Of a stretch of DNA of 64,000 nt, positions 26,800 through 54,759 are shown one piece after another. Numbering within the stretch: position 1 is the stretch's first letter; every line of letters starts with the position of its first letter. The position numbers and the translations under genes are program-made. Origin of the DNA: Terebella lapidaria (lineage: Eukaryota > Annelida > Polychaeta > Terebellida > Terebellidae); the NCBI GenBank assembly GCA_949152475.1, contig OX424560.1, positions 17,485,106-17,549,105 on the forward strand. The letters run 5' to 3'. A model generated the notes under the pieces. It had not been told where the DNA came from, did not search any database, and was given only the letters and a program-made list of their open reading frames with translations.

Positions 26800-27560
26800 T
26801 ATCCCCATGTTTTCTGGCCCAAGGAATCCGATGATGATATTGCTGAGTCTCTGTGACGGTTGGTTGTTTCAAAATCCAATATGGCTGCCACGAAAACCCG
26901 GGAAATTCGTAAAATCACGTTTCCAGCTATATTTCAGCTGCTATGACAAATAGAGGCAAAATTTGGGTGTCTACTCCCACGTTTTCTGACCCAAGGAATC
27001 CAATGGTGATAATGCTGGGTCTGTGTGACTGTTGGTTGTTTCAAAATCCAAAATCGCTGCCACAAAATCCCGGAAAAATTGTAAAATCACGTTTGCAGCT
27101 ATATTTCAGCTGCTATGGCAGATAGAAGCGAATTTTTGGTGTCTACCCCCACGTTTTCTGACCTAAGGACTCCAATGGTAATAACACTGAGTCTATGTGA
27201 ATGTTGGTTGTTTCAAAATCCAAACTGGCTGCCACAAAAACCCGGAAAAATTCGTAATATTACGTTTGCAGCTATATTTCAGCTGCTATGGCAGGTATAA
27301 GCAAAAATGTTGGTGTCTACACCCACGTTTTCTTACCTAATGAATCCAATGGTGATAATGCTGAGTCTATGTGACTGTTGGTTGTTTCAAAATCCAAAAT
27401 GGCCACAACAAAACCCCGGGGAATATAGCTATATTCCAGCTTCTATGGCAGATTGAAGCAACAGTTTGGTGTCTACCCCCAAGGACCCAAGGAATTCAGT
27501 GGTGATAAAGCCGTGTCTCTGTAACTGTTGGTTGCCTCAGAAATAAATATGGCTGCCATC
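26800..27560 (+). repeat. ~173-bp tandem repeats, left arm of the foldback element
   Basis: Units begin at CACGTTTTCTGACC-like boxes near 26805, 26979, 27151 and 27324, with a degenerate fifth near 27485. Each has TGTGACTGTTGGTTGTTTCA, a GCTGCCACAAAA.CCCGG box and AGCTATATTTCAGCTGCTAT. Confidence 0.8.
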
Positions 27561-28039
27561 AAAATCTGTGAAAAAAATGTGCAAACCCTGTTTCGACTAT
27601 ATATCAGCTTCTGTGGCAAATAAAAGATTTTGGTGTTTATATTTATGTTTTACCCAGTGAAAGGAGTAATAGCACCAGTGGACCCATATCCAACTAACAA
27701 GTTAAAAATGCCACATAATCTCTGTAAACTCAAAGTTTAGAACCAACACAGACATTGGCTTACTACAAGTCATTGATGTGACATAATGACAATCACAGTC
27801 ATTAATTCCGAATTGCAGGAATGTGGAGGGACTGCATCTTAGCAGAGCCATTTTCTCAAGACAGACAACTCAGTTTTTCATGACTGAGAGTAGCAATCAT
27901 CTGTTCGGTAGTAGTTTGGAATAAGTGTACAATTTTGATGAATAATTGCCTGTCACGATGCAATTTTTTTTTTTTATTTACAAAGTGGCTTCGTTTTGAA
28001 TGACAGCCACAGTTGCGTGAATCGTGCCTGCTCAGCACA

Positions 28040-28252
28040 ACAAAGAGTTTTGACGATCCCTTGTCATATCCACAAACAGGAAGAGTAGATTATGCAGATG
28101 CTGTGGCCGGAGAGAGGTTGATGCTAATTCACGAGAGGCAAAACATGTCAAAAATCTTGAAGGAGCATGCTTACATACAAATCATTGCACAACAAGAACT
28201 CCTCCACAATCTAGCTCAGCTCATCCACATCCACAGCTCTCACCCACAATGA
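28040..28252 (+). CDS. Unrecognised open frame in the middle of the foldback element
   Basis: A frame of about 68 residues (starting around FDDPLSYPQTGRVDYADAVA and containing ERLMLIHERQNMSKILKEH) ends at a TGA at 28252. It has protein-like composition and could be a terminal exon (a CTGCTCAG acceptor-like site lies near 28036). It may be a captured host exon or a relic of the element's own gene. I do not recognise it. Confidence 0.22.
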   Translation, partial: TKSFDDPLSYPQTGRVDYADAVAGERLMLIHERQNMSKILKEHAYIQIIAQQELLHNLAQLIHIHSSHPQ

Positions 28253-29084
28253 AACCATAAACATGTGGCTCTGCTGATATCCCTTCAAATTGAGCACAAA
28301 AGTAAAGTGTGTACAAGGGTATATGACTAACGTGACAAATCTGGGTTTCCTCTTATCAATATCCTTGTCTTGAGCAGTAATATCGCAACTTCTCCAGCCT
28401 ACGGCGTCTAAACATGTGTGTCGCAGTTTTCCAGCTTTGCCAGATAGTGCATGCATCTCACCAGGAACTCATAGCCGGAGCACAGGTTTCGACTTCCAAA
28501 CTGCTCAAAAATGATTGTATAAAGTTTAGATTTTAAAGTTTTATGATAGGCATGGTTATAGGTTAGTTAAAACCTCTCACATACATGTACATGTATGATG
28601 GTATATATTTCCCAATCATTGTGATTTTGTGGATATATTTGCATCTAAATTTACAAGTGTGGTTATATATGTCATGTTTAGCTGGCTACGACTTTGTAAG
28701 TGATAGTATCATCTGGATTCTACCACTTACATGTATTTTGATTTGATGAATTGTGTCTGTGGTCTTCGGATATGAATTTATATGTTTGTTGATATATCTA
28801 TTTGTGCTCATTTAGCTAGAAACCTGGTTTTGAGTTTTCGATTGCACTGGAACTTCGATACTACAACGCATCCCAGAGACTATCATCACCATTCCAACAT
28901 GGGTCAGAAAACATGGAGGTGAACACCAAAATCTTGTTTCGATCTTCCAGAGAAGCTTACATAATCGAATTTTAATTATGCGAATTTCACAGGTTTTAAG
29001 GACAGCCATATTGAATTCTGAGGCAAATTTCACCGTTATTGATGACAGCCATTTTGAATTTCGAAGCAATCAACAGTCACAGAT

Positions 29085-29830
29085 TTAGCATTATCACCAT
29101 TGGATTCCTTAGGTCAGAAAATGTGGGAGTAGACACCCAAATTTTGCCTCTATTTGCCACAGCAGCTGAAATATAGATGGAAACGTGATATTACAAATTT
29201 TCCCGGTTTTTGTGGCAGCCATTTTGGATTTTGAAACGACCAACAGCCACACAGACCCAGCATTATCACCATTGGATTCCTTGGGTCAGAAAACGTGGGA
29301 GTAGACACCAAATTTCGCATCTATATGCCACAGCAGCTGAAATATAGATGGATACGTGATATTACGATTTTTCCGGGTTTTTGTGGCAGCCATTTTGGAT
29401 TTTTAAACAACCAACAGTCACACAGATCCAGCATTATCACCATTGGATTCCTTGGGTCAGAAAACGTGGGAGTAGACACCCAAATTTTGCCTTTATTTGC
29501 CATAGCAGCTGAAATATAGATGGAAACGTGATTTTACGATTTTTCCGGGTTTTTGTGGCAGCCATTTTGGATTTTGAAACAACCAACAGCCACACATACC
29601 CAGCATTATCACCATTGGATTTCTTAGGTCAGAAAACGTGGGAGTAGACACCCAAATTTTGCATCTATTTGCCACAGCAGCTGAAATATAGATGGAAACG
29701 TGATATTACGATTTTTCCGGGTTTTTGTGGCAGCCATTTTGGATTTTGAAACAACCAACAGTCACAAAGACTCGGCAATATCACCATCAGATTCCTTTGG
29801 ACAGAAAACATGGGGGTAGACACTAAAATC
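29085..29830 (-). repeat. ~173-bp tandem repeats, right arm of the foldback element
   Basis: GGTCAGAAAACGTGGGAGTA boxes near 29112, 29284, 29456, 29628 and 29800 mark five units, reverse complementary to the left-arm units. Unit-to-unit similarity within this arm is higher than within the left arm. Confidence 0.8.
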
Positions 29831-30830
29831 ACCAACGTAGGTGCAGTACATAACTCGCTAGGTCAATTTTAAGCTATTTCGCGTATAAATGGCGGCCATC
29901 TTGGATTTTTGGGAAAACCCCCCATGGGATTGATGGGGACTTTTTTGTGGGTTATCTATATGGTCTCCAGAATCACTGTGCAAAAATTCAGCTTTGACAC
30001 CCAAATGTCTACCTTATGGGCTTTTTTTACCTAATTTTGGTAGACTATTTGGAGAAACAACAAAACTTAAATACATATGAATACTACGAGAAACGTTTTA
30101 AAATATAACAAGGAATTTAAAATGGGAAAATGTTGTCAAAGTGACCATACAACCTGTTCTTCATCCTTCCCGTGTTTAATGGATCATTCCAACTGGGTTT
30201 AATGGATCATCCAACTCGCATAGCATGACCTTTTAGGACTAAACATATTATTGGTATTTGTTCGGTGCTTGGACTGGTTTATTAATAATATTAATGAGAT
30301 CTCAAGGTCACAATTGATTAAAGGGGAACTCCGGCGAAAAATGATGTCCTGTAAAAATTATATCAAATGAAAGTACATAAAAATAGGTATCTAAAAAAAA
30401 TATAAATCGATTTTTTTACTTCACGGTTGATGAGAGGGCGTAAATTGAAATAATTAATAAATTAAGTGCGGGCCTCAATTTATGTGTACATTTCATGTGC
30501 TAATTGCGTAATATTTCGTACTTTCACTTTCGGTAGATTATGACGTTTTTTGGTATTGATCGACAGAAACATGATGAATCGGTCAGGCCTCGTGAACAGT
30601 TTTATCGATGTGTACTTGTGTCCACTAGTGCTCGCATTATAATTGCACACTCAATATTCGCGAAAGTGGGGTAAATTGAGCACTGATGACCTTGACCGAC
30701 GTGTCGTTTGACAGATTTGCCTCCAAGTTCATCGCTGGAGATAGATTTCAGGATACAACACCGCGAAATCACAGGAAATTGGATTCATATCTCAACTGCT
30801 CAATTTTCATTCTGTTGAATTTGTGTTAGA

Positions 30831-31246
30831 ATGTTCAAGCCTAATTTATTTGATCCTGTGGGAGTAACTAAGAAGCGCAGTGGATCTAAAAGATCAGATT
30901 TGAGTGAGGAAGATCCGGCCGCCGGCGCCGTCGATGATCGCGCACCGCCGGCACAGCCTGAGCCTGAGCCGGAGCTTCCTGATCGTCTTGGGAACACGGA
31001 CTGGTGTATGTGCGGACAGTGCATCCCAATGGCAACAGAGAGGGAGTGTGTGTGCTGCCGGGAGCTGGGTGAAGTGGTGGACCGCCGTAGGACAGACGCC
31101 CAGGGGGTAACATACGACTGTGTTACCCAGAATCCAGCCTTCCACTGGGTGGTTATTTTTCAGGATTCACTGGAAACTGCACTTGTGGGCATGCGTAGAG
31201 CAGTTTCCAGACGTCCACTGCTACCAGGAGCAGACATCCCCAGCAG
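30831..31246 (+). CDS. P2X7 ballast-domain-like protein, exon 1
   Basis: This is exon 1 of a predicted 198-residue soluble protein related to the cytosolic C-terminal 'ballast' domain of P2X7 receptors, which in vertebrates binds zinc and guanine nucleotide. Start is the ATG at 30831. Residues 1-55 are a low-complexity, acidic/Pro-rich leader. The signature begins at Trp58: Cys59, Cys61, Cys64, then PMATERECVCC with Cys73, Cys75, Cys76, and Cys97 in YDCVTQNPAF. The exon ends in phase 2 at a GTAGCT donor (31247). The exon is strikingly CG-richer than its surroundings. There is no P2X channel part (no transmembrane segments or ATP-binding ectodomain), so it is a stand-alone ballast protein encoded inside a transposon. 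Function is unknown. Confidence 0.8.
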
Positions 31247-31340
31247 GTAGCTAAATTCATTGATGTGTGTCATAATAAATAATATTATAATACATGTAAG
31301 TCTAGATAGTCAGTGATCTGGAGATGCTATGGAGTATGGT

Positions 31341-34300
31341 CAAAGATTTTCTATACCAAGATAGCCAACTCACGTCATTACGTGCGACCAGTTGAACAGT
31401 GGCGCCACACGACGGAATCTCTGTAAAAATGACGTTTTGGTGGAAATGGGCGCACGATTTCTAGCCCGACATGCAGCATTCAAATGCGGATTGCGAAAAT
31501 TTTACCGCAGTGACCCCCACATTTTATTTCATTTATTACATGTGTACAATCCAGTAGACATGCAGACTAAATTTTGGAAGTTTCTACCGTATGGATTTTT
31601 TTCTGGGGCTGTTAATTCATTTTGAAGTGAATAATATTGCGGATTTCGAAGGCTAGCTAAATTTCGTTCAGAAGTGTTTTGCAACAAATCCAACTCGACG
31701 ACCCTCATTTTTTAATCAACGATTTCAATCTACACATATCACGTGATAATCAGACAAATTTGGAAAGAAATCTGATGAACACATTTTTACCGGTGGGTGA
31801 TAATTCATCAACCATCTGGAAATATTATACGATTATTGCATGATAAATCCAGCGTGACGGAATAGCGTCCATGTGAGGGCATGGGTTGTGCAGAATTTTT
31901 CAACTCAACCATATATTTTATTATAACAGTGTCATCTATATACTCTCCTGAACATGCTTGCAAATTTTCATGTCAGTTCGTCCAAGAATGGGCGTGTTGC
32001 AAACATTTGTTTGTGTCCTCTCATCGTGAGACTTCGTTTCAAAATGTCGCGGCAATGTCAACGAAAAACTATTAAACCGATGCCCGAACGTACTTGTTTC
32101 AGTCCAGGATTGTGACAAAACCAACGCGACGACCCCCACTTTTTATTTGATTTTCTTAACAAGGATGAGAATGAATAATAATTTGTGAAATATTAATAAA
32201 TTCTATGGGTTAGAAATGTGGCAAAGTACCTTTTGTACTTATATCGAAAGTCAGAAGTGAAACGTCATATTTCATTTGTATTCAGTATCTTGTGCCTGAA
32301 ACTTATAGATATATTTCTGACAAATTGTAGGATGGAACACGTTTTCAATACTGTATGTATGACAACAATAAATGTAGATTTAGCACACGGGTGTATTCGG
32401 ATATTGTTGGTTTTTCAAGTGAAGCTGATATGGCGGTGCTACTGTTATCCTATACTGGTACTAAGTTTTCGTTTGTCTTGAAGCATTTTGTTGGGGTGGC
32501 GGAGAAATAAAATTCCCAACATTTCCTCAAGATCCACGGCGGCTTTCTGTTTTCTTTTTTTTTCACTCTAAAATTAATACAAAAAGTGCCCAGAATAACA
32601 TATCAACATTTAGGTAAAATCGCAAAAGCTATTGCAACGCAGTTTTGTGCCGCGTTCAGATCGTCGGTCACGTTAGTCGACGCCCTTTTTCGCATCGGAC
32701 ATACACGAACTGCGTCCAAGATGTTGACAAGTTCGTCTTGAAAGTCGGTGACATGTACACGGTGATACAGGAAAAGCTTACTCCTCAACCTCCTCAACAG
32801 TCCAATATCAGACGAGAAAGCTCTGACCTTGCTCGCATTCAGTCCATGGCTGAATTTAGTGATAATAAGCAGAACTATATCTTCTATGTCGCTGCATGGA
32901 TACTTGACAAATCACGGCATCATCGGACTGTGAATCCTCCAACTATGAAGCATGCAATTCACGCACACTAGATCGGTGAAAACTGGAAACGCTAATAAAT
33001 TTATGTTCATTGATAACAAACAGTACAGTGTCGTCAAGAAGGTGACTGAACACATGGATTGATGGAAAGCAGATTCGGAAACGTGAAGGAGCGAATCGAA
33101 CATGGCGGGCGTAGGCCTATCATGAGAAAAAACCCTTCCCTATGAGTTAATCCGAAATAGGCCTAGTGACGGCATCCCAGTGTTGCTTGCCCTGAACATT
33201 CAGAACAAAAGTCGCCTATTTGCCAACCTAAACCTGCACGCCTAATTGCCAACCTAAATCTGCATCATTACATCATTGCTTTTTGAATATGGTTTGAATA
33301 TACTGAGTAGCATGCTGACTGGCTAAATGAATATAAGAGACAGCATTGGCCTATAGTGTATGAATGCAAATTTAATGATACAACACTATTTTATTCATAT
33401 TTGTAAGTGCATGAGCGTGCGTGTGTGAATAGGAGCGTGCACATGTGCTAACCAAAAGATATATTAGTGCGATACTCTTATTTATAAGTTATATATAGCC
33501 TGGAATCTGGCTTGACTTGAATTCATAGTTATGTCGAATGTTAGGCCTACTATATGAATGAATGTGTTCAAGTGATGTACAGTCATGATATATCCCGTTC
33601 CATATTTTCACAGCGATGACAATTCTATTGAAAACATTAAGTTGATTGTGTTACTCAGTAAATTGTAACATGTAATTCACTTCTTTTCACATAGGCCTAT
33701 AGGCCTACTGGTATTTAAAATATGGTAAAACAATTTATAAATCGGTAATGCTCACAAAAACCCTATAAATTACATTCCAGGTGTCATAACTGCATTTGAT
33801 AATACGAAGTTATCGTTCCGATAGTTTAGAAATACCAGATATGGATATAGGCCTAGTAAATATTTCAGAGTGTCATTTTATTGGAATTGAAACGGAGTTG
33901 TAGGCTATTTGTAGGCACATTGAACATAACTCGAAATTTCCCATTTGATATCGGAAGTGAACCAGCGGTTGCAGACAATTTTGGCATGTTGTATTGCAAG
34001 AAGCCTACACCGGGTGATAACATTAGGTCTGAGCAAGCATAGCATTGACTGTACATGTCTGCTATTATTATAATGACAATTCTCGAGTGTAGCGTCAAGT
34101 TCTGTTGCGATTTTCCGTGATATATTCGCCTGATCGTGAAACCGACAAAACACAGATTGTCCTGGCACGCCACATTTACCTGTAGAATATTCCCATCCGG
34201 TAAATAAAATAGTTCAGATACTCACATACGTACACCTATTGTTGGGTAATGAGATATCAATTTAGATTCCATTCAGTGTCCGTTACAGAGACCCCGCTAG

Positions 34301-34370
34301 ATGGCGTTTACGTCATTATGTCGCAATACGTTATAACGTGAGTTGGCTATCTTGGTATAGAAAATCTTTG
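31341..34370. mobile_element. 3.0 kb DNA transposon inside the ballast-gene intron
   Basis: It is flanked by the 7-bp direct repeat GTATGGT (31334-31340 and 34371-34377). Its ends are perfect inverted repeats of 35 bp beginning CAAAGATTTTCTATACCAAG. No transposase frame was recognised. A CG-richer islet with a short open minus frame lies at 32603-32800. Motifs 'GACCCCCAC' plus TTTTTATT recur at 31511, 31698 and 32121. CA.AG-type ends are reminiscent of hAT or P elements, but both normally duplicate 8 bp, so the superfamily is left open. Apparently recent and non-autonomous. Confidence 0.75.
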
Positions 34371-34394
34371 GTATGGTGTAATCTAGCCATAAAA

Positions 34395-34418
34395 TACAGC
34401 CGCTTCAGAGCGGCTGTA
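34395..34418. other. Perfect 10-bp hairpin
   Basis: TACAGCCGCT pairs perfectly with AGCGGCTGTA around the tetraloop TCAG, 20 bases outside the right target duplication of the nested transposon. It is CG-rich in AT-rich surroundings. Confidence 0.6.
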
Positions 34419-35643
34419 AACCAATGTGCCTTTTTATTAGAAACGACTTTTTGAAACATCAAAACAAGTATGAAAATCACCGGGGGACATCATCTAACAC
34501 ATGTAGTTTGGATCTAAAATAACTCACCTTACTGCATATAAATACAAAATTTTACATCTTGAGTGCAGAGTCGTTTTATCCAGAGTTTTTGAGACAAATG
34601 TCTTCATTTTCAGTCATGATTATCGATCCCCATTTTGAGTTTCCCACCCGACCATCATATTACGTTTATGACGTTTTCTATTGCATTGTCTATGCATACA
34701 GTATTTTTGTGACGTTGGTCTCAATCTCTGTTTATCGTCAAGATCACAGAGATTGCATTCAATCTAGGTGTAATCGTATGACTGGAATCTCTGGATTATT
34801 TATTCTCTATCCAATTTCTATCCATCTGTACCGTAGGCCTAATGTAGATTCAGAACCCAACTGTTTATCACGATAAATCCTTTTTATACAGGTAGAGTCT
34901 ACTAGTATATTTCCAGTTACCCGATACAGCTAATTTTTTTTTTAATTTTGCCACAAGTGTAGATCTAGTTATCGAACAATTGTTGTGAAATCAACTCGAT
35001 CATACTGCGTGTATCAAATGTCCATATCAACATCATTATAACTACTGATTGTACTTTAAAGAAAAATTTTGTTTAGCCTGAAAATTTCAATGTGACATAG
35101 TTAGAGTGCATCTTGAAATATGGCCCATCCCCAGAGTTTTGTTTGATGCATGACATACTAGTAATTTGTAGATCTACATATAGACCGGTGTGTACCAAAT
35201 CTAGTGATGTATATCACTAGTATAATGTACTAGTATTTCAGATATCTCTCTTATGTATTTATGTGTATTTATAATGGAATCATGTTATTGTGTCATAAGA
35301 TAGTACTAGTATTAATTATCAGTGAAGAATTAATTGCCTACCAGTAATTTTTGGATCATATCATTAACATTGATAACATCACTGTAGTACAGTGGTGTGT
35401 ACTAAAGTACTTAGCAGAAGATGATTCAGTAGATTAATTTTACGATACATATTTTCTAGAGGCTAGAACTGAAAAAAAAAAACCAAATTTTATTTGTCAG
35501 CTGATTTTGAAATAAAAAATCTTTTATTTGTGCATCATTCATTTGTTTGTTCGTGCATTTCGAGCGAATTATTAATGACAATACCACGAAAGTTTAACAT
35601 ATCACAAATTCATGAACATAAGTTTCAATTTTTTTTCTTTCAG

Positions 35644-35824
35644 ACTGTATCGTCTCGTCGCCTACCAGCAGTTCACACACTGGACTCACGGTTACCTTGG
35701 GAAGCACAACAGACGGGTCATCCCTGCATGTGTCGTGAGACGGATCAGGGAGGCATATCCTGAGCCAGATGGACAGTATGTTGGCTTCCTGGAAGCTGAG
35801 GAGGATATGCCATGGCCCGTTTGA
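35644..35824 (+). CDS. P2X7 ballast-domain-like protein, exon 2
   Basis: This last exon starts after a strong polypyrimidine tract and CAG acceptor (35643). It enters in phase 2 to complete Arg139, and ends at the TGA 35822-35824. It gives residues 139-198: [18 protein letters not shown], then [17 protein letters not shown] with Cys168 and DGQYVGF. These match in order the second half of the P2X7 ballast domain (the AYR.F..W, LPSCC..IR..FP and GQY.GF elements). The tail is short and acidic. The phase and domain fit make the two-exon model firm even though the intron is 4.4 kb and contains a transposon. Zinc binding by the cysteine cluster is inferred from the family. Confidence 0.82.
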
Positions 35825-36739
35825 ACTCTGCTCATACATCTATCCCGTGTTCCAAGGCTTTTCAGTGTAAAATGTAATTCACTGATGTTCATGTTATCAA
35901 TTTTGATGATGCAATACGATACTTTGTATAATGAAATTATTGTCATTCATCTGCTAAGTTACCATGTTTGTAGCTTGTATGTATAGCAGATGTATATTTC
36001 TTTAGTCTGATTGATTACTTGCAGACATATACTAATGTACATGACTGTACATGACTGCACGTTTTCAATATATATATTCTTAGTTACTCCCACAGCCGTA
36101 TTTAGATAATTTTGTGAAAAATTTGAAACTCATGTAGATAATGCTGGTTATATTAGTAACAGTATCTTTTGAAATTGTTCACAATACTACTACTCAGTAA
36201 GAATGCGACAAACTGTGAATGCATGAATGTTAATTAGTTTTACAATAATAATTTGTTAATAACAGTCATGCTGTTAATGGTGTATAATTAGTTACTAGTA
36301 CTCTTTCTGCCATATTTTTATGTGGCCACAAGTATTAAGCATGGGCACTGATCACTGTAACCGGTTTAAAACTAAAAAGTGTGAAATTTGTTTTGCCTAT
36401 TGAGTTTAAGAAAGTGTTTGAAACTCAAGAGTGTACATGATTTTAATAACCAGCCTGCTAATAGCAATACATGTAATCAATTTTCATTGATAAGAACAAA
36501 CATATTGTGACACATGTGCACATTGTCTCATTTTGATATAGTTGTATGTAAACAAAATGAAATGTACAAAGCTGAAATGAATTTCACTCCATTAAATTTT
36601 ATTGGTGCATTAGTTTACATATATACTGGGACATAATTGTCACCACAATTTGTATTTGTATGTTTGTTCATATTAACTACTATATTACATAATATATAGA
36701 TATACTAGTATTTGTTACTCTGATTGCTGGTAGTGCATT
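35825..36739. other. Intergenic stretch between convergent genes, left part
   Basis: This AT-rich sequence downstream of the ballast gene contains no gene. An RNA 3' end must fall here, but no single polyadenylation site can be chosen. Confidence 0.45.
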
Positions 36740-37310
36740 TCTTTTGCAATCATTTTCAACATAGCCATAATGTAACAAAAAATGGCATATATATATATAT
36801 ACATGTAAATTGTAAAGCATGATATTTTTTGCAATCAGTCAACATTGACATAATGTAACAACATATGGCATTTTTTGCATATATCCCTGTAAATGTTAAA
36901 TCAAAGGTTTTTTGCAGTCAGTCCACATTGCCACAAGGTAACAATAAATAGCAAATTTGCATATGCGTGTAAAGTCATTTGCATCAATCCACATTGCCAT
37001 AAGGTAACGATAATGACATGTTTGCATATATTTCTGTAAATTTTAATACCTGAGATTTTTCTCAATATTCAACATTGCCATAATGTGATAATAAATGGCA
37101 TTTTGCATTATATACATGTAAATTGTAAAACCTGAGATTTTTTGCAACTATTCAACATTGCCATATATGTAAAAACGAATGGCTTTTTTTGCATATACAT
37201 GTAATGTGGAAACTCAAGTTTTTTGCAATCACTTCAAATTGACACACTGTAAAAATAATTTGATTTTTTGCATATATGTGTATATGTAAATCGTAAATTA
37301 CAATTTTTTC
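36740..37310 (+). repeat. AT-rich minisatellite, ~80-bp unit, about seven copies
   Basis: Each unit has CAACATTGCCATAATGTAA-like, TGGCATTTTTTGCATATA-like, CATGTAAATTGTAAA-like and GATTTTTTGCAA-like blocks. Units drift by indels. It lies between the convergent genes of the Kolobok-like element. Confidence 0.7.
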
Positions 37311-37736
37311 AATGAAGATATGAGGAAAATTTTCAAATTTGTTGTATCCCAGTATACTATTTAGTTCAATATTCTTAGTGATTCCCCATCCCCATAGCAT
37401 GTAAAGTCTGGTTCGTCAATGTTCTCCAGGGTTGTATTATAGGATTAATGTTTAAATCACAAATAGATTTAGGGGTGAGAAGTACTGTTTTACAAATGTC
37501 TAAAATTTAGTTAACATGTTTGCTGGTGTGAAGTTGTATTTTGCGACTTTCAATGGAGTGAAGTTGTGAATGTGATCCATGTACCAATTTAATGTATATA
37601 ATTTATGTAGCTAATGATGCATATGCTCAACTTTTGAAAATATTTCATCGATATTCATGCACAGTGTGGTATTATATCGGTACAGTGAAATCATATCATT
37701 GTAGTTCTACCATTCAGGAACTGACTTCCATGCAGA

Positions 37737-39554
37737 CTACTTCTCCCCAAACCTGGAAATTAGTGCCGCCACAGCGTCCCCTTTTTCCGGCTTGGGCAAG
37801 GAAGCAATATTATCAGGAAGATCTTGCTGGTCAACAACATCTTTCCTGTTGTCTGCGCATCGCTGCAAAACTCTGGACACCATGTCCTTGCGATACTGGA
37901 AGTTCTTCTTCGGGGTGAATATCTTTCGAGCACCCCACTGTTTAGTCCTTTTGCTGAACATAAGGCTAAACCTGAAAGTCCCGTCCTCAGTGACAGCTTG
38001 CTCTCGACCAAGGTTCAAGTTATGATCAAGAATAGCAAGGCGTGTCCTGGCAACCATTCCCTGATGCGAGAAGCGCAGTCGCTTCGGACAATACTTGAGC
38101 ATCATCGAATTGAATGACTCCAAGTGTCCAGTGTGGCAGAACTTGACAAGGTGGGTCAGATCCTTGACAAGTTTTGGGTCGGTTACTATGCCAACCAGTG
38201 CCTTGTGGGCGACGCTGTCCCGGGCCAGGTACTCCACGTCTACATCAGGGTCCAATGGGCCATGAGCGCACTTGTGAACAAGTTCACCCGTCTCCCATTC
38301 GTGATCATCCACAACGTGGTGAATGATTGAAATCCACTTCTCCTCCAAGAGATCTGGACTTCCTTCACAAGTGGCAGCGCTCCACCACAAGTGATACCTT
38401 ATAGCCTTGATCCAGTCAGCGAGTTGCTCACAACCCTTCTGCTTGGACTTTCGAAGGACTTTGTTGGGTACTGACCTGTCCATGTGGTATACATCATATT
38501 GGTGATCAACAGCGGGGTAATGCTCTCGAACCAATTTCACCACAGACTGATTCCTATCAGTTGCAAAACAGGCAACGTCAAGTGACAAGTCGATAGCTTC
38601 ATCCAGGGCCTTAGAGCAGCCTAACTTCTCCATGGCCACAGACGATGTGCTCTCCGTAACCTGGGTCAAACTGAAAGCAGGAATTAGGTGAGATTCCTGG
38701 TCCATCAGTACATATGTACAATACTTAGCGCTGTACCCAGGGGAGTCGCACCTTCCATCACCACATATTGTCAGGGGTTTCCCTGAGAGAAATGCTATCA
38801 CCTCACTCTGGTGCTCCAAGTATGTATCCCGAATCTCAGGAAACAGATACATTCTTTGGATATCATAGAAGCAGAACTTGCTCATAATTCTCAGATCGAT
38901 TATGGAGGCGAAGTCCTGGAATCTGGCGAAACTCAAGCCGCTGAAAAGTACAGCAGCGGACAGGGACAAATTTCCAGCAGGCCTACGGTTTACTAGTGGT
39001 TGACTTCGCCATACACCAGAGTGGTCAGATCGGAACGTATACCTGACAGAAATGAGGGACCCAGTGATATAGCATTTATAGTTGGTGATGGAAGAACCAC
39101 ACTGTGCGCAAAAGGCAAACAATTTGGATAACTCTGACCCAAAAACATTGAATTTATAGTCTCCCTGAAGAACTGTGTCATGGTCCGAATCATCGTCATC
39201 GTCAATTTTGGAGTAGTCAACGTCATAACTGTCGCTATCCTGGTGCTCATCGTCTGCCTGATTAGTCTCGTCACTGTCACTAAGTCTGTCTGTGCAGCTA
39301 TTGTCTGTATCAGCGTCGTTTGTCTTGTCACAGTCCATGTCAGTTTCATGTAAATTGTAATCAGTCTTCATGAGGTTGGGTATGTCTGTCACATCTGTCG
39401 TTTCCTTAAATAAGTCGTCTGTCCCACAAGCTTTGTCTGCTGTCTCCTTAACTACCCCCTTATCTAGATCCTTAACTAGCTTCTCTCTCCAAAGAATGCA
39501 GCAGGTACATCCACATGTTGGAGCTTCAGCTTCTGTCATAGCTTGTTGTATGAT
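37737..39554 (-). CDS. Kolobok-like THAP-DDE transposase, exon 3 (catalytic)
   Basis: This main exon gives residues 102-706 of a predicted 706-residue transposase. The acceptor is TATTGCAG (ending 39555), phase 0. It contains a CGCTCC cysteine cluster, an acidic linker rich in Asp (about residues 160-230) and a CAQC pair (250, 253). The catalytic core runs from about residue 360: CGDGRCDSPGYSAKY (Asp367/Asp371), FATDRNQSV (Asp434), YDVYHMDRS, and GHLESFNSMMLKYCPKR (Glu580), followed by ARTRLAILDHN. These are hallmarks I associate with Kolobok transposases. The frame is intact to its stop at 37737-37739. Which acidic residues form the DDE triad is inferred. It acts on the element's terminal repeats, cutting at TTAA. 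Confidence 0.85.
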   Translation of the reverse strand: MIQQAMTEAEAPTCGCTCCILWREKLVKDLDKGVVKETADKACGTDDLFKETTDVTDIPNLMKTDYNLHETDMDCDKTNDADTDNSCTDRLSDSDETNQADDEHQDSDSYDVDYSKIDDDDDSDHDTVLQGDYKFNVFGSELSKLFAFCAQCGSSITNYKCYITGSLISVRYTFRSDHSGVWRSQPLVNRRPAGNLSLSAAVLFSGLSFARFQDFASIIDLRIMSKFCFYDIQRMYLFPEIRDTYLEHQSEVIAFLSGKPLTICGDGRCDSPGYSAKYCTYVLMDQESHLIPAFSLTQVTESTSSVAMEKLGCSKALDEAIDLSLDVACFATDRNQSVVKLVREHYPAVDHQYDVYHMDRSVPNKVLRKSKQKGCEQLADWIKAIRYHLWWSAATCEGSPDLLEEKWISIIHHVVDDHEWETGELVHKCAHGPLDPDVDVEYLARDSVAHKALVGIVTDPKLVKDLTHLVKFCHTGHLESFNSMMLKYCPKRLRFSHQGMVARTRLAILDHNLNLGREQAVTEDGTFRFSLMFSKRTKQWGARKIFTPKKNFQYRKDMVSRVLQRCADNRKDVVDQQDLPDNIASLPKPEKGDAVAALISRFGEK

Positions 39555-39675
39555 CTGCAATACAGATGATAAAAAATGTTATCACATTGGCATAATACAG
39601 TTCCTATTTGCTAAATGAATACAATAATTACAATAATGATACTGTCTTGTAATTTATTAAGATATTTGCGGCAAA

Positions 39676-39820
39676 TTAACCTATCCCAAATCCAATTTGT
39701 CCGAGTCTTTTTACGTCATTTTCATCGTATTCTGCAAAACGTTACTATTGGCCAATGAGAAGTTTTCTGACGTAATTTGTGAAACTCGGACAACTTTTGA
39801 GGGCATTTGGGATAGGTCAA
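39676..39820. mobile_element. 145-bp MITE-like inverted repeat in the transposase intron
   Basis: Ends TTAACCTATCCCAAAT and ATTTGGGATAGGTCAA are inverted, and the similarity continues inwards (TGTCCGAGT and TACGTCA on both sides). There is no coding capacity. Confidence 0.6.
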
Positions 39821-40440
39821 TTACTACTCTGTATTTGTACAATTATCAATTATATGACACACATTTTTCTTATAAATGTAATGTGGTAACTTAATGTATC
39901 GTTCATTCTATATAAATAATATTGTATGTATACCATATATTTCCATAATTTGTTACCATTACTGGTATGCCTATAATTTTTAAGTTATGTATGTTAACAC
40001 CGGTATGATATACCTGAACTTCTATTGTATCAACACTATAGTTCATGAGTTATTGGATTTATAAATATTTCACATTGATGGCTTCACCTGACTATACTTA
40101 GTTTTGAAATCTTAACAAAATGTATATCTTGATATATCTTGACAAATTGTGATTCTTTTCCCGTGAATATGCTGCCAGATTTTTTGTACATCGATGTTAT
40201 TGTCATTTGTCTACCCACAAATTCTGAGAAAAGCAAGCTGGTAATAAATTCCGACAACTGCTTCAAACAGAAATTGTTGTATAACAGAGACATGCAAGGA
40301 CATGAAATTAATCTGAAAATAAGCAATGTCAACATGTTACATGATAAAATATATGTAAATTATATTTATATGTATACAATAAATAACAACAGTATAATAC
40401 CATCATCATTTGATATACTTAATCCAGTCATTATTTTATC

Positions 40441-40565
40441 AGGTGGGGGGGGGGGATCAAAAAAAAAAGGGGGGGGGGGGGGTCAGACGTTCATTTTCAA
40501 CATTATTGGGAGAGAAGGGGGGCATACTTTTATTTTCAATGGAACTGGAGGGGGGGGGGGGGGGG
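40441..40565 (+). repeat. Poly-G tracts (first cluster)
   Basis: Four runs of 6 to about 17 G lie within 125 bp, with CATTTTCAA(C/T) spacers, in the intron of the transposase gene (template strand poly-C). G-quadruplex formation is possible. Confidence 0.8.
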
Positions 40566-41204
40566 TAAGAGTTTGAATTTGATTTAATTTGAGAAAATCT
40601 GTATGTTGAAATAGTGAAATAGGTTAAAACAATCCAGTCAACATGGACTGATGGTTTATTGGAGTATACAGCATAATCCATCTTTTTGTTGAATTGTCAG
40701 TGAAACTATAGTTCCGCCGAAATTTGATCCTAGAAAGGACCATTCAGGAACACCCAAAATCCGGAGATGTCATACTAGTAACATCTAATGACCCCGAACC
40801 AGCATGTCAAAACCACAGATGTATTTTACTCAACAGTCAACACGTTGCCAAAACAGGAACTCCAGCCACTGAGAATAATCCTCGATGAAGACTTTTCCAC
40901 CCCGGATTGAAAAATAGTCCTGGATCGTCCCGGATGACCCTATAGTGATTCTGATATACCTGACTTTCTATTTGACCATGACTTTGATAGACAATCGCGG
41001 ATCATCACGGAACATTATGAACCCATCATGGTGCCAACACAGATTTGATTCAAGACAGGAAAAGTACCTATTCCAGAATGGCATTCATCAATGATATGTG
41101 AAAGAGTCATAATTTTTCCGAGTTTCGCTCTGGTGGTCCAGTTACATGTAGTCCTTAAGGAAGAAATAGATTCAAGTTTTTTTTCCGAGGAACACTTTTA
41201 TTTT

Positions 41205-41285
41205 GGATCTTGGGGAGGGGGGGGGGCATATGTAGGGGGGCATACATTGATTTACGATATCGGTGGGGGGGGGGGGGTCAACCTT
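41205..41285 (+). repeat. Poly-G tracts (second cluster)
   Basis: Runs of up to 13 G carry CATA and CATTGATTT spacers like those of the first cluster, 700 bp away, so the two clusters are probably copies of one repeat. Confidence 0.8.
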
Positions 41286-41894
41286 TGAAAACTCATTTCT
41301 CGAAAAATCCCGAATATATATGTGGATTGGAACATTCCAAGTTTTTATTAGAAATATTACAATGGTTACATGAATCTACCATTTTGCGGGAAAAGAGGGG
41401 ATGCGCTATACTATTAGGGCGTGTGCACTATTAGGACCAATACCGTATGTATTTATATACTTGACCAATGATTTCAGTCTCCATTATCCGGCACTTAGGA
41501 TGTCCTTATTCCTGAGAACTAAAACAATTTTATTCACAATCACATCACAAATTTGGACTTGTCTAAATAATCAATAGATACATATTTAAATAAATGAAAA
41601 GAATTGATATAATATGTGTATCACCTCATGCATATCATTGTAGATTTGTATGATATACAACATACATTTTCTTTACATGCGCTAATGACAACTTTTCAGT
41701 CAGTTGATTTGTCTTATCATTCGTATTTGATTGATTTCTAAATATTGATTGGCGTGGAGCAGATATCACCAGCAAACCAAAACATTAATTCAGTGGACAT
41801 TTTAAAAGTGTAGAATATAGTTGTAAATATTGAAAAAATTTCATAAAAAATATTTTCCTGGACTCTATATATGGTATATAAACCATCAATATAC

Positions 41895-42433
41895 TCAAGT
41901 TCAACACAAAACCTCATATGATTTTTGGCCATAACTTCATTTAGGATGGTCCGATCAATTTGAATTTTTTTTATGTTTCTATATCTATTTTTCACCAAAT
42001 TTCAGACCTCTATATTGAAAACTGAAAAAGTTGGCAATGTACCCAAATGTTAAATGTTGGACACAAATCAGATCACAAGAATTAAAGGAAATTCAGGGTT
42101 TTCATTATCTTTTCTCCACTAAGAGTTTTCGAGCAGGAAAAATCATTTTCTAATGAGTGTTTTCTAATGAAATATCATTTTTACAAAGTACCATGCAATG
42201 CGAACATCGAACAATATGCTAAATTCGGTTCAGACTCGCAAATTTCATATTTGATGTGAAATTCAACTTTGGAGTAGAATGCCAACTTCTTAAATTTTCA
42301 AGATAGAAATCTGAAATTTGGTGAAGAAATATGGTTTTATGCCAAATGGAAACAAACAAAATTTCAAATTGATCCGACCATCCTAAACAAAATGCCCAAA
42401 AATCATATGTATGAGTTTTTGTGTTGAACTTGA
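41895..42433. mobile_element. Inverted-repeat (MITE-like) element, same family as 5340-5840
   Basis: The arms (about 41895-42050 and 42285-42433) share CAAGTTCAACACAAAA, TAGGATGGTC and CACCAAATTTCAGA in inverted order. The inner CAGA(C/T)(T/C)TCTAT and GTTGGCA blocks match the element at 5340-5840. Confidence 0.6.
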
Positions 42434-42574
42434 CTTTAGCACATTAAAATGGTTTTGCTTTGATTAATATGAAATCTGCACCACATATTCAGCTTCATAT
42501 ATTCAATTTGACCTTATAGTATATATTTATTACGAAATATTCAAATGATTTCAATATCGTATTGACAATATTAC

Positions 42575-42695
42575 CGTTTGCCGTTCTACTTCTGTTGTTT
42601 CACTGTCTTTCTTCAGTGCTTGCGAGGGCAGCGCTTCATGCCTCAATCGCCTCCTCGGGCTGTTGGAGTAGGGTCTGAGGATCTCGATGTCACAA
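42575..42695 (-). CDS. Kolobok-like THAP-DDE transposase, exon 2
   Basis: This 121-nt exon lies between an acceptor TATGTAACAG (ending 42696) and a donor GTAATA (from 42574). Entered in phase 2 from exon 1 and left in phase 0 into exon 3, it completes the THAP domain: SCDIEILRPYSNSPRRRLR, then HEALPSQAL. The last corresponds to the conserved AVP(S/T) box closing THAP domains. The phase agreement on both sides and the domain completion support the splice model. Confidence 0.75.
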
Positions 42696-43068
42696 CTGTT
42701 ACATAGAAGTGTAAAGCTGACTATAATACTTGAAACTTAGTCTTACAAATAAATATCATGAAAGATGGAAAAAAACACAGTAATGATTCTTCTCGAAATA
42801 TTACATATTCATGTAGGCCTACATAATATTATGCTTCAAATAATAATAGTTTTGGTCATTCACTAACGTTAGATCTAGTTTATATGATCGGGCCCAAGAT
42901 AGGGCTGGCTGTTTTTTGTTTTGTTTTAGGAAATCAACATACGTTACTGTAGAGCGTTGCATTGGTAAGGGCAAGTCTATTTTTATTATAAATTATATAT
43001 TTATTTATTGTTATTGAATATTATAAATCCGATAGGCATATAGATCTATACAGGAGCCTACTACATAC

Positions 43069-43250
43069 CTCTGGAAGTGCCTCGAGCAAACTCGAAATGC
43101 CTTGTCTGTCGAAGTGGTTGGCACGCCCATGGCCTGTCGCCACGCCACCTCCTCCGACGGCGATGGACACGAGAAAATAGTTATGCCCGATTCACCAAAT
43201 GTACTCCTGCATCCAGGGATGGAGCAGCCTGGTTTCTTTCTGCTCGTCAT
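43069..43250 (-). CDS. Kolobok-like THAP-DDE transposase, exon 1 (THAP zinc finger)
   Basis: ATG at 43250-43248; 182 nt to a GTATGT donor (from 43068). It encodes the N-terminal part of a THAP DNA-binding domain with Cys9-x4-Cys14-x40-Cys55-x2-His58, the C2CH pattern of THAP, plus Trp37 and Pro44 in typical places (EEVAWRQAMGVP; FRVCSRHF). Upstream in-frame sequence has no THAP character, so this ATG is preferred. It lies about 600 bp from the right terminal repeat, reading inwards. THAP domains at transposase N-termini recognise terminal DNA. Confidence 0.8.
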
Positions 43251-43371
43251 GCTTTCATCGATGTGTATCTTGCAAATGCCGTATGAATGTAAACAAAGAG
43301 CTGTCAAAGTCAGCTGATTTTGCGCGTGTACGTATTTTTCCATGGCAACGGCAGTGAATGACCGCATGAAA

Positions 43372-43406
43372 TGTGCGCGTCATACACGTGAACTGTGCGC
43401 GTCATA
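43372..43406 (-). promoter_or_regulatory. Duplicated TGTGCGCGTCATA motif upstream of the transposase
   Basis: Two exact 13-bp copies start at 43372 and 43394, 22 bases apart, with an ACACGTG between. They lie 120-155 bases upstream of the transposase ATG and inside the right end of the element. They could be promoter sites or THAP binding sites; inference only. Confidence 0.3.
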
Positions 43407-43989
43407 GGTCTGTTTACGTCATCAACAATGAGGTCATTTTCTGGAAATTCCCAGCGGGGAAAGCACCTGTTTTGGTCTCGAAAACAGTGTAAAACACATC
43501 ATGTTCATGCAACAGTCACGACTGTGTAAATTGCGGAACTTAACATACAAAGAGGTAGGATTGTTAACAAGGGCTGAATAATCATACACATGCTTTTTGC
43601 ATTGTATTTATGCCATGTTTAACCCATGCAAAACACTCTGCATTTTCGTGTATTTCACGATTACCTGGCATTCATACCAAAACACATTTCGCTTCGTCCC
43701 TCAAAAAAAGTTTCACACACAGGTATGTACTCGTTTTAATTGATAACCTTGTACATGAGTGTATGCTTCGCACGCTGATATTTTTTCCATATTTTTAGGA
43801 CGATGCTATGCTACTTTAATTAGCGGTTGAAAACAGCCATTTTCGCCGGAGTTCCCCTTTAATACGCTATTTTACTAGTGCCAAATTTGGTACGAGTAAA
43901 CATCAAAATGACACAAACAGTTCACTGATAATTCGACAATAATAATATTCATCACGATTCTAGACGATGAATTGAAATCAGTCTTATTT

Positions 43990-44130
43990 CGAGAGATTCT
44001 GCCAATTTTAGACATCAAACGCAGAAATCGTGTGTTCCCGTTCAATTTCCGGCTGCGAGTTCGAATATCTTATAGAGACCATGAGTTAGTATTCAACATC
44101 GCGATTTTCACGCGTATTCAGACAGTGATT
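43990..44130 (+). repeat. Palindromic-core repeat (unit A, right part)
   Basis: Contains ACGCAGAAATCGTGTGTT, TCAATTTCCGGCTGCGAG and GATTTTCACGCGTATTCAGA. It is the counterpart of 54615-54760 and, inverted, of 6225-6350. Confidence 0.6.
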
Positions 44131-44415
44131 AACTGCTGACGTATTGCCACATATTTTACCTAAATCTTTGAACTCGAAATGTCTCGTTTGTCGTGAAACC
44201 CCAAGCATGCTCTTGCTTCAATTTGTAATTGGTTTGATCGTAATTTTTTTTATTGATCTAACATACAAATTTATAGCAGCTACCTAAGATGAGATTCATC
44301 ATGTTCATGTTATGAAAGAAATTTCGAGTGGATTTACCAGTGTAAATTGATGTTTTTTTGTGAGGTCAAGACCCCTAACCCCTTAACTTGCATCAACAAT
44401 TACCCCCTGTCTGTG

Positions 44416-45383
44416 TTACTGTCAAGGGATATTGAGATAGATCCTTTGAATGTGGTGACTGACTTCTCAGATATTCAAAGCACAGGGGGCAATAAAAGCA
44501 ACAATTCCTGACGAGTCGAATTTCAAGCTTTGTCTCAAGGAGGAAAATCGACGTGAACGCAATTGATACTGCCGAAGTCTTAGTTGGTATTCTTGTCCAC
44601 AAACCCATGGGAATGGCTCTGCCCATAAAATGAGCTGGAAAGACGAACCTGAAAAATCTCTACATAATACGGACCCCACTAGGTGATGAGGTCCATGTCT
44701 GATATATCCCAGACTATATACAAATTTATCCAATATCCTCAATGTGTCCATTTGTTCCTCCAACGACAATTTTTCCGACTAAATCCTTATGATACTTACT
44801 TTTCTAGTAGTGGATTTATAACAACAACTTACATGTATAGATATCTTACTATCAAAATATCCACAGTTCATTGATGGTTGAACTAAATGATGCTATCATC
44901 CATTAGAGGAAAGGAAATTGGGAAGATTCATTAACTGCAGTTATACCAATATACTTGCTGAATTTTGTCACTAATTGCCATCTCAAGCATTAACATGCGC
45001 TAATGTATTTATTCTCCTGATGCATTCGGGCACATGTGCAACTGATATATGCAATTAATATACAGTGTATATGGGAACAAGAATCGATATTTGCCACGTA
45101 TCTAGCTTATCACATTTTTATCCATTTCATTATCAACAAATCCACACAAAACGACCAAGCGGGGTGAATGGAGAATTTGAGACTAGACGGTAGCGTCCCC
45201 TCTGGCCTTTGTGACCGTCAAGGGGTATTGAGATAAATCTCTGGGATAGTGTGATGAGGTGTTCAATATTCAAGTCACAGGGGCAATAAAAGCAACAGTC
45301 ACGTGTCGAACACCAACCTTTGCCTCAAGACGCAACACCGAGGGCAGCCAAATTAATACTTGCAGGTGATTTGTTGGTATTCA
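44416..45383 (+). repeat. Two spaced ~175-bp repeats (unit A)
   Basis: 44416-44595 and 45208-45383 share GTCAAGGG(G)(A/T)ATTGAGATA, a GGGGCAATAAAAGCAACA block, a TCTCAAG or CCTCAAG block and a closing TTGGTATTC. They are paralogous within the unit and retained in all three units. Confidence 0.55.
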
Positions 45384-46339
45384 TTCTCACGACTAAAAGT
45401 GTATTGCCTCGCTTGTAGACAAATAGACTATCGTTGCTACATTCAAATTAACAACGATGAGAGAGAAGCATGGAATATGTGTACCTTTGAAGTTAATTTT
45501 TTGCGTCATACCGAGACTCCTGTGTGTGATGGGAGAGTTAAGGTTTGACTAAGTTAATTAACAACTAAATCTTCACATTTCTATATCATTGAAACAAATT
45601 CAGATTATTGCTGCAAATCAATTGATATTTTAAAAGTGAACTTGTAAGTGTGTTAGCGTGGACAAATTATGTGGTGATATATGATTTACTAGTAAGCATT
45701 TTGGCAGATTTTTTCCGTAGTTATATTTATATTCACAACGGGTTACAGTTGAGTGGCAATTTTGATTGAGAAATTTTCTTCACATTTGTAGTCACATTAC
45801 GCTATCAAAAGACCAAAACCAGCGCTTTATTTGTGGGTAAAATCTCGTGACTAGTTTCCACCCAGGTTCGTTCAAGAGAGATATATCCATACTTTGAGTA
45901 AATCGGTAGCGACGATGTATTGTTGGAACGGGAATTACTATTACGTGATATGATTTGAACTCATCCAAAGTTGGCCTCTCTCGACGACCTCATGGATAAT
46001 GAGTGCAATTCAAAGATGCATGGATAATATATATTCTAACACCCCAGTTTCACCAGTTAAATATCCATCAGTTCTTACTCTGCGTTCCATTTCTACAATG
46101 ATGTAGTCCAAACATACTGCTGCTAATGACAAACAAATATTTTGTTCCACTCACATGGAAGACCAACAAAAACCAGTGAGTCAGGGTTTTTCACCAATAT
46201 CTCGGTAGCTGTCATATCATTATATGGGCAGTATTACTACTATCGGCATCAATATTTGATAACTTTTAATCGACAACAGCTGTTTGTCTGATTTTGGCCT
46301 CGGTCAAGGCCACATTCTGAAGCCATTGTTGATATGGTG

Positions 46340-46388
46340 TATATATACATAAGTGTGATGTTCATAACTTTTGCACCAATGTCACGTG
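46340..46388 (+). promoter_or_regulatory. Candidate core promoter of GNAT copy 2
   Basis: TATATATAC at 46340-46348 and CACGTG at 46383-46388 lie about 275 and 230 bases upstream of the ATG. The whole 46260-46560 stretch is nearly unchanged in unit B (57225-57510). Confidence 0.35.
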
Positions 46389-46616
46389 GCGTATACGGAA
46401 AGAAATTGGAGGTTTTCGAACAACGTAATACAAAGTTTTAATGGATTCGGATAGGGTTCAAACAGCGAAAGGTTCGAGTATTGTTATCATCTGATAATTG
46501 TAACAATAATGTATACATACAAGACAATCATGTTTTCTAAGAAATAACAGATGGTACGTATATCAATATTGCAAATGTTATGTGTAAATATGAATGGTTA
46601 ATTCCATGCAAAAGAA

Positions 46617-46809
46617 ATGACTGAAGAAACGTGGAGCGTAGATAACTTGAGGCTGACGATCAGGTGCTTGCGCAGTGATGACCTGGATCAGTTGCACTTG
46701 ATGACGTCTGAAGTTGGATGGTCGGCGTCAGTGGAAGAGTACAAACTGATTCTCCAAGCTGCACCTGGTGGACTTATCGGGGCGTTTTTGGAAGGCGGAC
46801 GTCTTGTGT
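46617..46809 (+). pseudogene. GNAT N-acetyltransferase copy 2, exon 1, donor lost
   Basis: This matches exon 1 of copies 1 and 3 (ATG at 46617, LRLTIRCLRSDDLDQL, VEEYKLILQAAPGGLIG). In the other copies the exon is followed by GTGAGT; here the same position reads CTGAGT (46810-46815), so the invariant G of the donor is C. Read-through gives a stop four codons on (SEF then TAA at 46818-46820). The next plausible donor (GTAAAT at 46822) lies beyond that stop, so either way a 67-residue truncated product is expected. A sequencing error at this one base would also explain it. Confidence 0.65.
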
Positions 46810-54614: not shown

Positions 54615-54759
54615 TTCGAGGGATTCTGCCAATTTTAGACCTCAAACGCGGAAATCTTGTGTTCCCATTCAATCTCCGGCTGCGAGTTCAAATATTTTAT
54701 GGAGACTGTGAGTTAGTATTCAACATCGCGATTTTCACGCGTATTTAGACAGTGATTAA
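54615..54759 (+). repeat. Palindromic-core repeat (unit B, right part)
   Basis: Counterpart of 43990-44130. Its right end, GTGATTAA, is the target of the 353-bp insertion that follows. Confidence 0.6.

Follow-up and report, generated by a model that had tools for sequence, protein, structure and literature searches.

Kolobok DNA transposons have termini defined as 5'-RR...YY-3' (PMC9587614), and elements of the Kol0 lineage, for which Kolobok-1_XT is named as the representative with KolX, encode the ballast-fold protein KolX (Kojima & Bao 2022, PMC9587614). The lineage has been reported from vertebrates, annelids, cnidarians, and sponges, and P2X7 has been proposed to have arisen by fusion with KolX (Kojima & Bao 2022, PMC9587614). 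P2X7 is an inflammation receptor (PMC9859053) whose ballast contains a GTP/GDP site (PMC9859053; PMC7016195); the function of the zinc and guanine-nucleotide sites of this ballast is described as unknown (PMC9859053). The two-gene arrangement was already published in 2022, and the element analyzed here is a well-preserved new example of it.

The window, i.e., the whole 64,000-nucleotide stretch of DNA that was analyzed, contains a complete-looking transposon of 13,537 bp (30322-43858). Its features and those of a related empty site are as follows:

30318..30321, left target-site duplication TTAA
30322..30340, + strand, left terminal inverted repeat (TIR), 19 bp, starting with AGGGG (RR; AGGRR motif)
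30831..31246, + strand, exon 1 of the KolX-type (ballast-domain) protein, with start ATG and first cysteine clusters (Pfam P2RX7_C)
31341..34370, nested insertion in the KolX intron, with TIRs of about 48/51 bp and the 7-bp duplication GTATGGT on either side
35644..35824, + strand, exon 2 of the KolX-type protein, with the last conserved cysteine and stop (Pfam P2RX7_C)
39554-37737, - strand, transposase exon 3, with DDE catalytic body, H2CH finger, and stop
41895..42433, imperfect palindromic insertion in transposase intron 2
42695-42575, - strand, transposase exon 2, second half of the THAP domain (ALPSQA replaces AVPTIF), borders picked among several in-frame options
43250-43069, - strand, transposase exon 1, with the chosen start ATG and the C2CH of the THAP domain
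43840..43858, - strand, right TIR, 19 bp
43859..43862, right target-site duplication TTAA
54486..54489, paralogous empty site, TCAC here versus TTAA in the filled copy

The 19-bp TIR AGGGGAACTCCGGCGAAAA is the same at both ends of the element and TTAA adjoins each of them, in agreement with the perfect terminal repeats and the TTAA on both sides claimed in the first-pass annotation. When the whole window was searched with a 21-mer composed of the TIR and two TTAA bases, only the element's two ends were found at up to four mismatches. Counting TTAA and one extra base, the exact inverted match amounts to 24 bp, and the expected number of such pairs in the window is about 3e-5 under a simple base-composition model. 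Since the window holds 95 exact inverted pairs of at least 20 bp, the longest of which lie within duplicated segments or a second insertion, the case for the element is not built on the inverted match by itself. This second insertion lies to the left of the element (26581-30047). Beyond the TIR, the two 700-bp ends have in common words of just 9 to 11 bases, and repeated subterminal transposase sites are unconvincing.

Stronger evidence than the inverted match is provided by the paralogous empty site: the window contains a duplicated copy of the element's flanks that lacks exactly the element and one TTAA. The left flank of the empty site (54215-54480) matches 30032-30312 at 84%, and the right flank (54490-54759) matches 43863-44132 at 93%; between empty and filled flanks, 187 of 207 aligned columns are identical and gaps are absent. 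No residue of the 13.5 kb is carried by the empty paralogue. Its target reads TCAC, and the two substitutions that have to be assumed there count against the Kolobok identification given below. Because the paralogous site lacks the whole interval, the ballast gene is part of the mobile unit rather than a host gene flanked by insertions. As judged from the DNA sequence, both genes are thus shown to lie inside one pair of ends as one mobile unit, and KolX and transposase are tied together within one window, without database annotation.

The two genes are convergent, with KolX on the + and the transposase on the - strand, and both models are stop-free, as anticipated when intact convergent genes were proposed for this locus. 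The predicted ballast gene comprises two exons with GT/AG splice sites and encodes 198 residues. In this protein Pfam found only P2RX7_C (E 1.9e-21) and no P2X channel domain, which bears out its earlier description as a P2X7-type ballast protein; KolX is here a stand-alone protein and not part of a receptor. Comparison with the sequences of solved structures gave four distinct matches, each of them P2X7 (best E 3.3e-10). Seventeen relatives were found among 5741 candidates, originating from amphioxus, crinoid, sea cucumber, clam, and cnidarians (three rows lack an organism name), and two amphioxus proteins matched KolX at 44 to 49% in the alignment. When the protein was aligned with these 17 relatives (n = 18; several phyla), C59, C61, C64, C97, C168, R142, Y146, R162, and V170 were identical in all 18 sequences. 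The CC pair (C75, C76) is absent from two of the 18 and is not set opposite the CC pair of P2X7 in the KolX-P2X7 alignment. The ballast fold was checked on the AlphaFold model of one relative only (P0121, mean pLDDT 68.1), for which all 14 PDB matches at E<=0.001 were P2X7, with TM-scores of 0.37 to 0.41 of the query.

The three-exon transposase model, for which splicing is predicted, yields 706 residues without a stop; joining exons 1 and 3 without exon 2 gives 66 residues and then a stop. Alternative borders of exon 2 likewise keep the frame, and two in-frame ATGs (43367, 43343) are situated upstream of the chosen start. In a scan of the first 164 residues, a THAP domain with C2CH was recognized at E 2.4e-9 over profile positions 1 to 85 of 87, exon 2 included. 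The AVPTIF box of this domain is divergent, reading ALPSQA in the chosen exon 2; among Xenopus transposases, the exact box was counted in only 17 of 38 and in 12 of 24 (PMC6004289). For the transposase body, 218 relatives at E<=1e-3 were found among 6012 candidates (best E 3.1e-134), and conservation was counted over 30 sequences, i.e., 29 of the 120 relatives listed (218 in total) and the ORF of the window. Among the predicted catalytic residues, D274 is present in 29/30 (the nearby D278 in 30/30), and D341 and E487 are invariant. The DxxH signature between the second D and E (D362/H365) and the H2CH zinc finger between signature and E (H421, H426, C437, H439) are likewise conserved in all 30. 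Together with the THAP match, these features uphold the claimed THAP-DDE transposase. Between D274 and D341, C277 is the only (near-)invariant cysteine of the 30 aligned sequences and histidines of this kind are absent; KolobokP/E/D/5 have a second CCHC finger located downstream of the first catalytic D. Pfam PF20700 (Mutator-like), present in many of the relatives listed, was not recognized in the window ORF, whose sole weak Pfam row was DUF7870 (E 0.064). The structure model of the transposase body (mean pLDDT 75.3) matched transposases and integrases in Foldseek, albeit with low TM-scores: ISCth4 at E 4.1e-6 (TM 0.32/0.46), foamy-virus integrase from about 3e-4, the P element at 1.9e-3, and Hermes at 2.2e-3.

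Taken by its features, the locus is very probably one Kolobok DNA transposon with a complete structure, belonging to the type that bears KolX (Kol0). No transposase match listed is named Kolobok, and therefore the assignment rests on features: the TTAA duplication, termini of the 5'-RR...YY-3' form (AG...CT here), and the DDD/E triad with C/DxxH signature and H2CH finger belong to the Kolobok definition, the THAP domain with C2CH is a usual Kolobok trait, and an encoded KolX, whose ballast fold was checked on P0121 only, is a trait of Kol0. The earlier Kolobok identification agrees with all defining features tested, the AVPTIF box being divergent. An element of the piggyBac type would likewise target TTAA, and a few piggyBac families have a KolX-like C-terminal part (PMC9587614), but that part lacks most of the seven cysteines, whereas the ballast protein here retains its cysteine clusters; the THAP domain, DxxH and H2CH, and the RR/YY termini are Kolobok traits, and the transposase relatives have Pfam Mutator-like and THAP domains. 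These features contradict a piggyBac origin, which was rejected as practically negligible. Alternatively, the ballast gene might be a NANOR-like host gene caught between or beside transposon pieces, given that stand-alone ballast proteins are known from many animals (relatives listed) and that ballast genes are linked to two markers across invertebrates (Rump et al.). Yet Rump et al. find no synteny block common to all these genes, no further TIR copies lie within the element, and the duplicate of the locus is without the entire 13.5 kb, with nothing left behind. An independent host locus that merely received neighboring insertions, which the first-pass annotation had named as a refuting outcome, is contradicted by this empty site, and we consider the host-gene explanation very improbable and have rejected it.

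The remaining content of the element was also surveyed. Neither the ORFs scanned from the insertion in the KolX intron nor, at E<=0.05, 10 further ORFs of the element had a Pfam match, and a nuclease or RecQ helicase domain, as encoded by the extra gene of KolobokE/H/D/P, was not seen in 17 of the 73 ORFs at 29000-45500. KolobokP was rejected, as its long terminal direct repeats were absent from the direct repeats reported for 30000-44200. Rfam gave no match at the gathering threshold within the window. Searches of transposase or KolX against viral contigs, and of the transposase profile against prokaryote contigs, gave no confirmed relative, a result made weak by the content of these collections.

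The ballast gene had been regarded as either cargo or a working second component. Its place in the mobile unit stands by virtue of the empty site, and since the Kol0 lineage carries KolX according to PMC9587614, the protein is a component of the lineage and not the accidental cargo of one copy; between cargo and working component, three readings were weighed. By analogy with its family, the transposase would bind the element ends via its THAP domain, cut with its DDE RNase-H-like domain, and paste into TTAA. Our preferred mechanism, put forward tentatively, is that KolX is a diffusible, zinc-stabilized accessory subunit: made at the far end of the element from the transposase, it would associate with the transposase bound to the transposon ends and promote end pairing or strand transfer, and its conserved basic residues R142, R162, and R174 may hold phosphate, whether that of a nucleic acid or of a guanine nucleotide. 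That KolX is instead passive cargo of the lineage, kept by chance, is unlikely in our estimation; the accessible portions of the literature contain no experiment that shows a role for it, and other Kolobok lineages have different accessory genes or a transposase only (PMC9587614), but its reading frame is intact, nine residues are identical in all 18 aligned sequences from several phyla, and the taxonomic breadth reported for Kol0 (PMC9587614) likewise speaks against chance retention. It is possible, if doubtful, that KolX acts on the host outside the transpososome, e.g., as a regulator or silencing antagonist protecting the element, in line with the host proteins NANOR and P2X7 (tail) as its proposed domesticated relatives (PMC9587614); P2RX7_C, the one domain seen by Pfam, does not favor this. 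If the ancestor of the P2X7 ballast was a transposition factor, as the origin proposal of Kojima & Bao allows, ballast function could be tested starting from the transposon. A complete-looking two-gene KolX element whose empty site is clean offers a favorable basis for tests of what the ballast fold does outside P2X7.

The proposed accessory subunit can be compared with two proteins that handle guanine nucleotides. The C-terminal ballast domain of P2X7 resembles KolX in its cysteine clusters, its fold match, and two of five GDP-contact residues; it differs in being fused to a channel part. P2X7 R546, Y550, and R578 correspond to KolX R142 (18/18), Y146 (18/18), and R174 (17/18), the two arginines matching GDP contacts, whereas the other three of the five contacts (H547, R574, and K583; Rump et al.) are absent from the KolX protein here. 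The P element transposase shares the THAP and RNase-H-like DDE domains and differs in that its duplication is 8 bp long and that it has a built-in insertion domain for GTP binding; it requires GTP (PMC7776569). By analogy with that domain, KolX could be a guanine-nucleotide-binding subunit given in trans to the THAP-DDE transposase, which would make the P2X7 nucleotide pocket a remnant of a transposition cofactor site. We regard this as quite improbable: H547, R574, and K583 have no counterparts here, a review terms the GTP use of the P element unique (PMC7776569), and a structural role or DNA binding would account for the conserved arginines just as well. Such a role for KolX was not met in the portions of the literature at hand, which were not searched for exactly this claim.

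Among the other known systems, the Xenopus XKol transposases and T2-MITEs (PMC6004289) are alike in the THAP, DDE, and H2CH features of the transposase and in TTAA and AGGRR ends, and differ in the AVPTIF box, which reads ALPSQA here; KolX and P2X7 do not occur in the main text of that paper. Zebrafish NANOR and NANOR-like proteins (PMC7016195, PMC9587614) are short stand-alone ballast proteins as well, whereas the KolX described here sits inside a transposon beside its transposase. The closest counterpart is Kol0 with KolX (Kolobok-1_XT, PMC9587614), with which the element shares the TTAA duplication, RR/YY ends, a DDE transposase with DxxH and H2CH, and a separate KolX. From the published Kol0 elements it differs as a new family, in which, according to splicing predicted from this element alone, the transposase gene has long introns and the KolX gene is split by a 4.4-kb intron holding a nested insertion.

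The element, a Kolobok-like transposon of 13,537 bp (30322-43858), carries the perfect 19-bp inverted repeat AGGGGAACTCCGGCGAAAA at both ends and TTAA directly outside each of them. The 21-mer formed by this repeat and two TTAA bases did not recur in the window when up to four mismatches were allowed. Since the window holds 95 exact inverted pairs of at least 20 bp, the longest of which lie in duplicated segments or in a second insertion, the inverted match alone is not the main argument for the element.

The main argument is provided by a tandem duplication in the window (44132-48741 versus 55114-59710, 91% match). Copies of the element's left flank (30032-30312) and right flank (43863-44132) are present at 54215-54480 (84%) and 54490-54759 (93%), respectively. 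When the left flank including its TTAA was fused to the sequence that follows the right-hand TTAA and aligned to 54381-54600, 187 of 207 columns were identical and no gap occurred. The duplicate thus lacks exactly the element and one target-site copy. Opposite the target TTAA it has TCAC (54486-54489); either the duplicate was altered since, or the target there was never TTAA. The element was either inserted after the duplication or precisely lost from one copy, and under either reading the 13.5 kb including the ballast gene, which encodes a cysteine-rich protein of 198 residues resembling the P2X7 tail, are a single mobile unit. The alternative that the ballast gene is an independent host locus that merely received neighboring insertions, envisaged in the first-pass annotation, is therefore contradicted by the empty duplicate site.

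The host locus itself is a small tandem/inverted cluster. Open frames at 410-1246 (minus strand), 47008-48039 (plus), and 58127-58930 (plus) lie in duplicated segments and share 83 to 91% identity; the latter two, which were scanned, match GNAT acetyltransferase Pfam families. The second insertion (26581-30047, 3,467 bp), with ends TAGTCTAC and GTAGACTA and TTT on either side, has no counterpart in the paralogous copy, where the empty site lies near 54224-54241. Its inverted subterminal repeats are two facing 172-bp tandem arrays, at 26789-27419 and 29046-29823.

The exons of the ballast gene, those encoding the THAP domain of the transposase, and the insertions within the element are as follows.

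30831-31246, plus strand, ballast exon 1 (predicted, in-frame join)
31341-34370, nested insertion of 3,030 bp in the ballast intron, inverted ends of about 48/51 bp, 7-bp duplication GTATGGT
35644-35824, plus strand, ballast exon 2 (predicted, in-frame join)
41895-42433, imperfect palindromic insertion of about 540 bp in transposase intron 2
42695-42575, minus strand, transposase middle exon, remainder of the THAP domain
43250-43069, minus strand, transposase exon 1, C2CH half of the THAP domain

Both genes run inward and converge. The distance from the left end to the ballast ATG is 509 bp, that from the right end to the chosen transposase ATG 608 bp, and a diverged tandem repeat array of 82- to 83-bp units (36742-37287) lies between the two genes. 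Their stop-free frames and predicted splicing agree with the convergent gene models proposed initially, as does the window sequence with the terminal repeats and TTAA. The G+C content is 0.47 to 0.56 in exons, higher than the values of 0.33 and 0.37 measured for two introns. The nested insertion, whose CA...TG ends and 7-bp duplication we take to recall P-type elements, and the palindrome, possibly a foldback or MITE-like insertion, leave the coding exons of both models unbroken; the description "intact-looking" is thus right, yet the element, hit twice itself, is not brand new.

The catalytic body of the transposase is encoded by a 613-codon open frame (37740-39578, minus strand), which 218 of 6012 candidates matched at E ≤ 1e-3. 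In an alignment of the window ORF with 29 relatives, drawn from 120 of the 218 matches, the DDE triad, the DxxH signature, and the H2CH finger were invariant or nearly so; one relative (P0020) has N in the column of D274, the putative first catalytic Asp. In Pfam, no transposase family matched the window ORF, whose best row was DUF7870 (E = 0.064); many relatives carry PF20700 (Mutator-like). The body model (mean pLDDT 75.3) best matched the bacterial ISCth4 transposase (E = 4.1e-6, TM 0.32 of the query), followed by foamy-virus integrase, the transposase of the P element (E = 1.9e-3), and that of Hermes (E = 2.2e-3). The THAP domain lies upstream, split over two exons: without the middle exon the model reaches a stop after 66 residues, and with it the predicted protein comprises 706 residues and covers positions 1 to 85 of the 87-position THAP profile (E = 2.4e-9). 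The exon 2 borders of this predicted splice model were picked by eye as those best extending the THAP domain of the relatives; alternative acceptors and donors are likewise in frame, and two in-frame ATGs precede the chosen start.

The joined ballast exons give 198 codons plus a stop, and the product matches Pfam P2RX7_C (profile positions 73 to 191 of 192, E = 1.9e-21) and solved P2X7 receptors (best E = 3.3e-10). Searches of 5.8 billion proteins returned 2 ballast relatives among 205 candidates with the single sequence and 17 among 5741 with a three-sequence profile, the 17 stemming from amphioxus, crinoid, sea cucumber, clam, and cnidarians (three rows without organism name). In the resulting alignment of 18 sequences, the window protein and the 17 relatives, C59, C61, C64, C97, C168, R142, Y146, R162, and V170 are identical throughout, R174 is present in 17, and C75 and C76 are present in 16, being absent from two Hydractinia proteins. 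The fold was modeled for the relative P0121 in place of the spliced window protein (mean pLDDT 68.1, much of the N terminus below 50); all 14 PDB matches at E ≤ 0.001 were P2X7, with modest superposition (TM 0.37 to 0.41 of the query). R142, Y146, and R174 align to R546, Y550, and R578 of rat P2X7, whereas L143, V170, and E179 stand opposite the GDP contacts H547, R574, and K583, so that in this alignment these three are absent from the ballast protein. This agrees with the statement of Rump et al. (PMC7016195) that their non-vertebrate ballast proteins conserve only R546 and R578 among the GDP contacts.

From family knowledge, the THAP domain would bind the element ends, the DDE domain would cut and join, and TTAA would be duplicated on insertion. 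For KolX, the ballast-fold protein of the Kol0 Kolobok lineage, we tentatively rank first a role as accessory subunit of the transposition complex, the most likely of the options; that it acts on the host as a regulator seems somewhat less probable, and that it is passive cargo slightly less probable again. In a bolder version of the accessory role, and quite improbably, KolX might supply in trans the guanine nucleotide that, according to PMC7776569, the P element transposase brings in cis; the two conserved arginines speak for this analogy, the three missing contacts against it.

Kojima and Bao (PMC9587614) describe the Kol0 lineage as encoding a transposase and KolX, match KolX to the P2X7 tail and ballast fold, propose it as the source of P2X7 and NANOR, and mention a few piggyBac families with a protein resembling its C-terminal part. 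In the full-text literature, whose scope leaves out most subscription papers, KolX was not found outside that paper, and Kolobok together with P2X appeared besides only in a general review. Rump et al. (PMC7016195) report invertebrate ballast genes linked with two markers and an Ixodes protein combining a "TAHP" (probably THAP) domain with ballast; linkage to a Kolobok transposase could explain both. Apart from the AVPTIF box, the element shares the Kolobok/T2 features listed in work on Xenopus (PMC6004289), namely, THAP, DDE, H2CH, and TTAA with terminal AGGRR, which upholds the Kolobok-like assignment. Given these features and the published pair of transposase and KolX, the element is a new, well-documented case of a transposon type already described.
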